Shown in pieces: positions 36,550 through 41,789 of a stretch of DNA of 42,711 bases. The first letter of the stretch is position 1. Every line of letters starts with the position of its first letter. Location of the stretch: assembly GCA_947463235.1 (NCBI GenBank), contig CANHST010000002.1, positions 1 to 42,711 of the forward strand. The letters run 5' to 3'. A model generated the notes under the pieces. It was not told the DNA's origin and made no database searches. It saw nothing but the letters and a program-made list of their open reading frames with translations. Source of the DNA: Acidimicrobiaceae bacterium. Its GTDB lineage: Bacteria > Actinomycetota > Acidimicrobiia > Acidimicrobiales > Ilumatobacteraceae. The position numbers and the translations under genes were made by a program.

Positions 36550-37188
36550 TCAGCGGATCGGACCGGTGCGGTCGACCATTTCACGCGACGAGATGACATC
36601 ATCGATGATGCCATACGCGAGGGCCTCGGATGCTTCCATCACGAAGTCTCGGTCGGTATCGGCGTGGATCCGCTCGATGGGCTGACCGGTGTGCTGGGCC
36701 AACATCTCCTCGAGCAGATCGCGCATCCGCAGGATTTCCTTGGCAGCGAGCTCGAGATCGGTGACCTGGCCGTAGCCCACCTGACCGTACGGCTGGTGCA
36801 GCAGGATGCGGCTGTGCGGCAGTGCAAGGCGCTTGCCCTTGGTGCCTGCAGCGAGCAACACGGCGGCCGCAGAGGCGGCCTGGCCGAGGCAGATCGTGGC
36901 CACGTCGTTCTTGATGAACTGGATCGTGTCGTAGATCGCGAACAGCGCGGTGATGTCGCCACCGGGGCTATTGATGTAGATGCTGATGTCCTTGTCGGGG
37001 TTCTCGCTCTCGAGATACACCAACTTGGCGCAGGTGAGGCTGGCGGACGCATCGTCGATCGGCGTGTCGAGCCAGATGATGTTGTCGCGCAGGAGACGGC
37101 TGTAGAGGTCGTAGCTGCGCTCGCCGCGGCTGGTCTGCTCGACCACACCCGGGATCTGGTAGCCCGACATCATCTGGAAATCGTTCAC
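36550..37188 (-). CDS. clpP: ATP-dependent Clp protease proteolytic subunit (ClpP2-like)
   Basis: [57 protein letters not shown] start with GAGGAG overlapping the tig stop. Confidence 0.93.
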
Positions 37189-37198
37189 GCGTCGCTCC

Positions 37199-38704
37199 TC
37201 AGTGCTGGTGGTCGTGGTGGTCGTGATCGTGATCGTGGTCGTGATCGTGATCGTGATCGTGGTCGTGGTCGTGGTCGTGATCGTTGTTGCCGAGCAGCAG
37301 CGTGCGGTCGATGGCCGCACCCTTGTCGTCCACCACTTCCACGTGCTCGAGCAGCCAGTCGAGGGCCTTGGTCTTCTTCAACTGGGCGGCGAGGTCGGTG
37401 ACCGCGTCGTTGTCCTCGTAGGCCCTCTTCACCTGGCTGGCCTTCTGACGCACCTGCACGGCGATGCGCACGTACTCGAGGTCGAGGTCCTCCTCGGACA
37501 CGTCGAGGCCTTCAGCGGCAGCCACGGCACGCAGGGCGAGATCCACCCGCACGGCCTTCTCGCTCTGCACGCGCAATGCGCCCACGAACGAGTTGGCGTC
37601 CTGACCCGTGGCTTGCAGCCACTGGTCGATGTTGATGCCCTGCTGCTGGAACTGTTGCACCGTGTTCTGCACGCGAGCCTGCAGGTCGCCCTGCACCATG
37701 CTCTCGGGCACGGCGTCCTCCACCAGTTCGGCCAACGCCGAGGTGGTGCGCTCGACGAACAGGTTGCGTGCCTGGTTCAGCTTGGCGGTGCCGATGCGCT
37801 CGGCCACAGCGCCGCGCCACGCTTCCACCGTGTCGTGCTCGCCGAGGTTGTCGGCGACCCACTCGTCGGTGATCTCGGGCAGCTGCATCTCCTGCACATT
37901 GGTGACGGTGACGGCGAAGTCGGCCGGCTCGTCGGTGCCGCTGGGGTTCGCGGTGAACGCAAGGTCGGCACCCTTGGAAGTGCCGATGATCTGATCGTCG
38001 AAACCTTCGGCGACCCAACCCTTGCCCACTTCGTAGAGCCAATCCTCGGTGTTGAGGCCGGGAACCGGCTCGCCGTCGCGGCTGGCTGCCAGCGTGAGGG
38101 TGACATGGTCGCCGGCGGCTGCCGGACGATCCACATCGACGAGGCTGCCCTGGCGGCGACGCTCGGCATCCACCGCTTCGTCGATCTCTTCTTCGGAGGC
38201 CACCGGGCTGGGCAACTCCACGCGGAGACCGCCGTAGCCGGGCACCGTGATGACGGGGCGCACTTCACAGATGGCCTCGAACGACACCGGGCCGCTCTCC
38301 GTGCCACCGGTGATGTCGAGCTCGGGGGTGGCGATCAGGTCGATGTCGTGCTCGCGCACTGCCTTGGCGAGGTACACCGGCAGGGCGTCGCGCAACGCTT
38401 CTTCACGAGCAGCGGCCAGACCGATACGGGCCTCGAGCACCTTGCGCGGCACCTTGCCCGCACGGAAGCCGGGCAGCCGGGCCTCTTTGCCGATCTTGCG
38501 GAACGCCCGATCGATGTCGTGGTCGAACTCGTCCTCGTCGATCGTGACGTCGAGCTTCACCAGTTGGCGGGGGGCGGGGGCAACGACTTCGCCGCCGTCG
38601 AACGCCTCAATGGCGTCGTCGTCGGTGGTCTCGGGAGCATCGTCGTCGATCTCCTCGAGGACGTAGGCGGGCGTGTCGTCGAACGGTGCAATCGTGCTTT
38701 TCAC
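37199..38704 (-). CDS. tig: Trigger factor with acidic N-terminal extension and poly(Asp-His) C-terminal tail
   Basis: [21 protein letters not shown] signature; adjacent to clpP-clpX; ends DHDH...HDHQH. Confidence 0.93.
37202..37282. repeat. 6-bp-period simple repeat encoding the trigger factor Asp-His tail
   Basis: gtgatc/gtggtc alternation; minus strand reads (DH)11-H-D-H-Q-H. Confidence 0.95.
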
Positions 38705-40412: not shown

Positions 40413-41789
40413 ATGAGCAAGGATGACCGGTCAGTACTCAGTTGGCTCGCGTTCGTGGCAGCACTTGCTGCCCTGTGCGTGGCGATCTTCGGCCTCAAGG
40501 ACAACGGAAGTTCGTCCGGCAGCGCCGCAGGTGGTGGTGGAGGCGCCAAGCCCACCGTCAACGTCACGTTGAAGGACTTCGTGTTCGACCCTGCCACGAT
40601 CACCATCCCCACGGGTGGCGCCACGCTGCACCTGATGAACGGTGGAGCGACGATCCACAACTTCAAGGTGGCCGAACTCGGCATCACCAGCATCGACATC
40701 GCCGCCGGTGCCTCGTACGACCTCAACATCCCCGCCACCCCGGCAGGCACGTACAAGGTGATCTGCCCGCAGCCCGGCCATGAGGGCGCCGGCATGGTGG
40801 GTTCGCTGGTGGTCAGCGACTCGGCCAGCGGCGACGGCGGCAGCGCAGGTGGCACCCCCACCACGACGCCCGTCGACGCGGGCCACGATGCTTCATCGAA
40901 CTCGGCAATGGATGCCCGCATGCTGGCCGCAGCGCAGCTGTACCCGGCCAAGACCGCCGGCCACGGTGGCGATCTGGCCACCTTCACCGTCGCCGCCGAT
41001 GGCTACAAGGAGTTCGTGGTCGAGGCGAAGATCGTCGACTGGGAAGTGGAGCCGGGCAAGATCGTCAAGGCCTGGACCTACAACGGCGTGGTGCCCGCCC
41101 CGGAGATCCATGTGAGCTCGGGCGACAAGGTGCGCATCATCTTCAAGAACGCCCTACCGCAGACCACCTCGCTGCACTTCCACGGCATCAGGGTGCCGAA
41201 CGTGATGGACGGTGTGGACCCGTACACCGAGGCCCCCACCACGCCGGGCGGCGAGCACATCTACGAGTTCACGGCAAAGGGCCCGGCCGTGGGCATCTAC
41301 CACTCGCACCACAATGCGCAGGAGCAGATCCCGAACGGCATGTTCGGCGCCCTCACCATCGATGAGATCCCCACCCCGCAGGTGCTCATCGACAAGGGCT
41401 ATCCCGAGAAGCCCACCAAGAGCGTGAACATGGTGCTCAACGACGCCGGCGTGATCGGCCTCAGCCTCAACGGCAAGAGCTTCCCCGCCACCGAGCCGTA
41501 CACCATCCGAGTCGGCCAGACGATGCTGGTGAACTACATGAACGAGGGCCTGCTGGTGCACCCCATGCACATGCACCAGCCGCTCGGATGGATCATCGCC
41601 AAAGATGGCGTGCCGCTGATCACCCCGATGCCCACCGACACGCTGCTCATCGCCCCAGGCGAGCGCTACACGGTGCTCTACATGGGCACCGACCCCGGCG
41701 TGTGGGCGTGGCACTGCCACATCCTCACCCACGCCGAGACCGCCGATGGCATGCGCTACATGGTGACGGCCCTCATCGTGGAGCGATGA
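40413..41789 (+). CDS. Membrane-anchored cupredoxin fused to a two-domain multicopper oxidase
   Basis: N-terminal TM; cupredoxin IHNF...CPQPGHEGAGM; MCO motifs SLHFHGIRVP, GIYHSHHNAQEQ, HPMHMHQPLG, WAWHCHILTHAETADGM. Confidence 0.9.
   Translation: MSKDDRSVLSWLAFVAALAALCVAIFGLKDNGSSSGSAAGGGGGAKPTVNVTLKDFVFDPATITIPTGGATLHLMNGGATIHNFKVAELGITSIDIAAGASYDLNIPATPAGTYKVICPQPGHEGAGMVGSLVVSDSASGDGGSAGGTPTTTPVDAGHDASSNSAMDARMLAAAQLYPAKTAGHGGDLATFTVAADGYKEFVVEAKIVDWEVEPGKIVKAWTYNGVVPAPEIHVSSGDKVRIIFKNALPQTTSLHFHGIRVPNVMDGVDPYTEAPTTPGGEHIYEFTAKGPAVGIYHSHHNAQEQIPNGMFGALTIDEIPTPQVLIDKGYPEKPTKSVNMVLNDAGVIGLSLNGKSFPATEPYTIRVGQTMLVNYMNEGLLVHPMHMHQPLGWIIAKDGVPLITPMPTDTLLIAPGERYTVLYMGTDPGVWAWHCHILTHAETADGMRYMVTALIVER

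Follow-up and report, generated by a model that had tools for sequence, protein, structure and literature searches.

Why should a chaperone that works at the ribosome end in a run of alternating aspartates and histidines? The question is raised by tig, the trigger factor gene in a 42,711-nucleotide stretch of contig CANHST010000002.1 from an Acidimicrobiaceae bacterium (Ilumatobacteraceae in the GTDB lineage; assembly GCA_947463235.1), which we call the window. Trigger factor is an abundant chaperone that docks at the tunnel exit of the ribosome and is the first chaperone met by most bacterial nascent chains. A first-pass annotation, made from the DNA letters, had read the last 27 residues of the tig product as (DH)11-HDHQH with 14 His and 12 Asp, and the open reading frame and its codons bear this out.

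The core of the protein is that of an ordinary trigger factor, with a ribosome-binding domain, an FKBP-like domain with an eroded pocket and a C-terminal chaperone body (Table 1). In profile searches the product scores 296 bits with TIGR00115, against a cut-off of 180, both the Trigger_N and Trigger_C domains are over their Pfam cut-offs, and tig is the sole Trigger_N match in the window's genome. Six of the eight positions of the docking signature GFRAGKVP are invariant among 20 aligned sequences, the exceptions being residues 82 and 85. The AlphaFold2 model (mean pLDDT 83.6) has a confident core and two stretches predicted to be disordered, the D/H tail itself (residues 475-501, pLDDT < 50) and an acidic insert near the N-terminus. 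Its closest PDB structures are those of E. coli trigger factor, 2vrh and 1w26 (E about 1e-23), and the low whole-chain TM values of 0.40-0.44 probably reflect domain arrangement. The E. coli protein 1w26 shares the overall fold, domain order and docking signature, but it lacks both the D/H tail and the acidic insert and its FKBP pocket is complete. Aligned with 1w26, the present protein has other residues in place of F168 and F177 and a shorter Y221 loop but retains F198 and F233, and its FKBP_C match, at 16.1 bits, is under the Pfam cut-off of 21.1. Judged from these residues, the peptidyl-prolyl isomerase activity may be weak or lost. Several pocket residues are missing across the family alignment as well. 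The acidic insert, which adjoins the ribosome-binding domain, is present in the genus and a few relatives and is absent from most other aligned family members.

Table 1. Features of the trigger factor locus, with positions in the window
Feature	Position	Strand	Remarks
tig, trigger factor	37199..38704	minus	GTG start, 501 aa; TIGR00115, Trigger_N, Trigger_C
Acidic insert, second disordered segment	38576..38674	minus	residues 11-43 (about 33 residues); pLDDT < 50
Ribosome-docking signature GFRAGKVP	38447..38470	minus	residues 79-86; fits GFRxGKxP
FKBP-like PPIase domain	37868..38128	minus	residues 193-279; pocket residues changed or missing
Trigger_C domain	37346..37831	minus	residues 292-453; Pfam PF05698, 87.8 bits
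C-terminal D/H tail	37202..37282	minus	27 residues, (DH)11-HDHQH after GNN; predicted disordered
GGAG, probable ribosome-binding site of clpP	37195..37198	minus	directly 3' of the tig stop codon; from sequence
clpP	36550..37188	minus	probable GTG start at 37188; named from sequence

The gene order is tig-clpP-clpX, all on one strand, with clpP and clpX named from sequence and not by profile; a longer listed clpP open reading frame extends out of frame into the D/H repeat. No metal-homeostasis gene was recognised within the tig-clpP-clpX run. About 1.7 kb from tig, an open reading frame at 40413-41789 on the plus strand resembles by eye a multicopper oxidase or copper nitrite reductase, and its N-terminal region looks cupredoxin-like.

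The DNA encoding the tail is repetitive yet imperfect. Tandem Repeats Finder reports a repeat at 37217-37284 with a period of 6 or 18 and 91% or 90% matches; the Asp codons mix GAC and GAT (6 of 12 are GAT) and all 14 His codons are CAC. The first-pass annotation was thus right that this is not a perfect microsatellite, and the scattered synonymous codons indicate a DNA repeat that is old and imperfect. Its expectation that slippage would alter tail length in frame also agrees with the nearest relative, a 94% identical protein from a separate assembly, whose 24-residue tail, NN(DH)6QH(DH)4QH, compares with 27 residues here. The window's tail contains four non-overlapping HxHxH units. Within the 3.12 Mb assembly, CAYGAYCAYGAYCAYGAY gives eight overlapping matches, all inside the trigger factor tail, and none for the reversed-pattern control; no HDHDHD string, (HD)3, was found elsewhere in that assembly. 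General D/H tagging of proteins was rejected on this ground and because the genome's three other FKBPs lack His-rich tails. An assembly artefact was dismissed since like tails occur in many separate assemblies, including single-contig genomes. A function of the repeat at the RNA level was discarded as well, its folding being no better than that of shuffles (z +0.64), and the terminator-like matches there are on the other strand and are produced by the repeat itself.

For a survey of relatives, trigger factor C-termini were found with the Trigger_C profile, which omits the tail and so leaves the survey unbiased towards tails; members of the genus were found by searching with the full-length protein. 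A D/H tail was counted where a C-terminus had 4 or more His and 3 or more HD/DH steps. Among distinct C-termini chosen for reading within Actinomycetota, which are not a random sample, the tail is found in the window's own genome (1/1), in 12/12 from the rest of the genus and in 42 of the 69 from the rest of the family; it is rare beyond the family, with 4/36 in the rest of the order (all four in one family), 3/51 in the rest of the class and 0/68 in the rest of the phylum. Among close relatives, whose C-termini the first-pass annotation had proposed to align, the tail is present throughout the genus (13/13, a count that omits G014, a genus member with no trigger factor match). One sequence from the genus, L027, matches L015 exactly in its C-terminus. 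In most C-termini read from outside the family the extension is absent.

In a C-domain tree from which the tail was left out, all family members fall into one clade (SH-aLRT 100) whose basal branches bear tails. The trait changes 12 times in total on this tree, a count that cannot separate gain from loss. The tail is absent in the clade of genera g8 and g21, and in genus g4 it falls to 2-4 His. The simplest reading of these sequences would be a single gain in the ancestor of the family, followed by losses in g8 and g21 and a few others and a weakening in g4; outside the family, the tail would have arisen separately in f8, a second family, and in three further lineages of the class. The tail appears to date back to the family's ancestor, with at least one loss inside the family and a few gains outside it, and its loss in g8 and g21 and reduction in g4 show that it is dispensable. 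The commoner state in the phylum is an acidic C-terminal tail without His. Since relatives without His mostly keep acidic tails (D+E about 30-36% of tail residues), an acidic disordered tail is the likely ancestral state and starting point of the D/H tail.

In family members that bear the tail, 21.5% of its residues are His, whereas in tail-less relatives beyond the family the His share is 0.3-0.8%; Asn, which a single transition separates from Asp, accounts for 2.8%, and Tyr for none. An acidic neighbour flanks 651 of the 731 His residues in the tails read, and HH pairs number 23, against 245 +/- 10 in shuffles. Synonymous sites vary across tails while the D/H pattern holds, and the alternation is kept in relatives at protein identities of only 55-70%. 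A compositional artefact was rejected because the locus GC of tail-bearing genera spans about 0.45 to 0.69, and a bare microsatellite was rejected because of the synonymous codon variation and the conservation across the family. Evolution has kept the D/H tail, and selection acts on the protein, as the first-pass annotation had surmised from the codons: synonymous scatter, family-wide conservation and a preference for His over all other one-step substitutions all point the same way.

The nearest measured precedents for the tail are a zinc motif and a copper-binding tail, both from mycobacteria. The PacL1 peptide W-DLHDHDH binds Zn 1:1 with an apparent KD of about 6 uM and does not bind Mn, and the DLHDHDH motif matters at high zinc only (PMC9374683). 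PacL1 resembles the present case in being an actinobacterial, chaperone-like carrier with a disordered C-terminus of alternating Asp and His (PMC9374683), but it is a small membrane protein that partners a P-type ATPase, and its motif has seven residues as against 27 on a ribosome chaperone here. GroEL1, also a chaperone of actinobacteria, has a C-terminus that is short and rich in D and H, DHDHHHGHAH, for which Cu(II) binding was measured on peptides (PMC10170517); GroEL1 differs in being a chaperonin with a tail that is shorter and more His-rich. The FKBP-type chaperone SlyD of E. coli and H. pylori has a disordered C-terminal tail that binds several Ni or Zn ions with KD values in the micromolar range (PMC7055735). 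In SlyD, however, the tail contains Cys and Glu as well as His and Asp, and it is linked to the maturation of [NiFe] hydrogenase. To our knowledge, SlyD has neither a ribosome-docking domain nor a Trigger_C domain. H. pylori HspA, a GroES, likewise assists folding and carries a His-rich extension at its C-terminus that is specific to its lineage, but that extension contains His and Cys and sequesters nickel in a Ni-dependent organism (cited in PMC7840056).

By analogy with these systems, the trigger factor tail probably binds metal, and the identity of the metal and a buffering role can be argued in the same way. The start would have been the acidic, disordered C-terminus that actinobacterial trigger factors commonly have, and in an ancestor of the family, probably Ilumatobacteraceae, His would have become interleaved with Asp into repeated HxHxH sites. 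Such sites would have micromolar affinity for Zn(II) and likewise for Cu(II) or Ni(II), so that the tail, with about four sites per chain here, may take up Zn when it is in excess. As trigger factor is abundant and located at the ribosome exit, the most likely role of the tail would be that of a low-affinity metal buffer or store. We give an even chance to the full proposal, namely that the tail is a low-affinity buffer, most likely for Zn, on an abundant ribosome-bound chaperone.

The analogy to SlyD and HspA was also the basis on which the first-pass annotation had brought in nickel, and here its argument divides: D/H-type tails of PacL1, GroEL1 and SlyD do bind metal, but a nickel role does not follow. 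Were the tail a nickel store or chaperone serving Ni enzymes, the raw counts across 148 family genomes would fit, urease-like genes and hydrogenases being commoner in tail-bearing genomes (Fisher p 0.0017 and 0.013). The link vanishes, however, in phylogenetically independent pairs, which number 7 and hence have little power, and 20 tail-bearing genomes have none of the three enzymes surveyed (urease, hydrogenase and Ni-SOD). Genus g4, in which Ni-SOD is general, has weak His tails, and in the window's genome, which is 94.8% complete, urease, [NiFe] hydrogenase, Ni-SOD and HypB, the last sought in this genome, all have no match over cut-off. Nickel is thus unlikely to be the purpose of the tail in this organism, and we regard a nickel store of the SlyD or HspA type as very improbable. 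One genus member (G007) encodes a LarC-like nickel-insertion protein (L016) with an internal D/H-rich stretch.

Slippage of the 6-bp GACCAC unit, acting neutrally and with no function for its product, would account for the period of the repeat and for the small steps in length between relatives, and it may well be what determines the length of the tail. It gives no reason, though, for the tail to be retained, and the scattered synonymous codons, the excess of His over Asn and Tyr and the persistence of the alternation at such low protein identity make a purely neutral origin the least probable of the readings weighed here. A stronger contender, though still an unlikely one, is that the tail is a charged disordered extension for solubility, spacing or the tuning of ribosome or client binding, to which any metal binding is incidental. 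That tail-less relatives keep acidic tails is in its favour, as is a charge that depends on pH (with a His pKa of 6.5, about -12 at pH 7.6 and about -2 at pH 6), and because acidic His-less tails are the commoner kind in the phylum, part of the tail's function may be charge alone. A charge role by itself leaves unexplained why, on several occasions, it was His that came to alternate with Asp, and why the result resembles known metal motifs. We consider it quite unlikely that the tail passes Zn to nascent metalloproteins at the ribosome: the position of trigger factor at the tunnel exit, its conserved docking signature and the D/H tails that four relatives carry on uL22, another tunnel-exit protein, are consistent with such co-translational metallation, but those uL22 tails occur in only 4 of roughly 70 genomes read and the window's genome has none.

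The uL22 stretches lie in a C-terminal extension of the protein (L338 and L017 in G004, L336 in G009, L337 in G012 and L318 in G094), as in K(DH)10-GDEAAA of G004. As a general rule a uL22 D/H tail was rejected, the stretch being absent from nearly all other genomes read. In many genomes the extension ends in the module IKGN..SMLYHEPGSRYY..T.AEVWFDT.E.AEAAGFS.P (L334, L339, L342, L348 and others, and L333 of the window's own genome). A wider form of the metal-buffer proposal, in which the tunnel exit has a metal buffer of its own, with trigger factor and sometimes uL22 holding Zn and either loading metalloproteins or shielding nascent chains from mis-binding, seems to us slightly less likely still than co-translational metallation.

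His-rich tails were already known on GroES, GroEL1 and SlyD, and our search of the open-access literature turned up no account of such a tail on trigger factor. If the tail binds metal in cells, the ribosome exit would be endowed with a considerable capacity for binding metal, and whether some metalloproteins are metallated during their synthesis would become a testable question, for which the gains, losses and graded tails of this family, from 0 to 20 His, are a ready comparative set.
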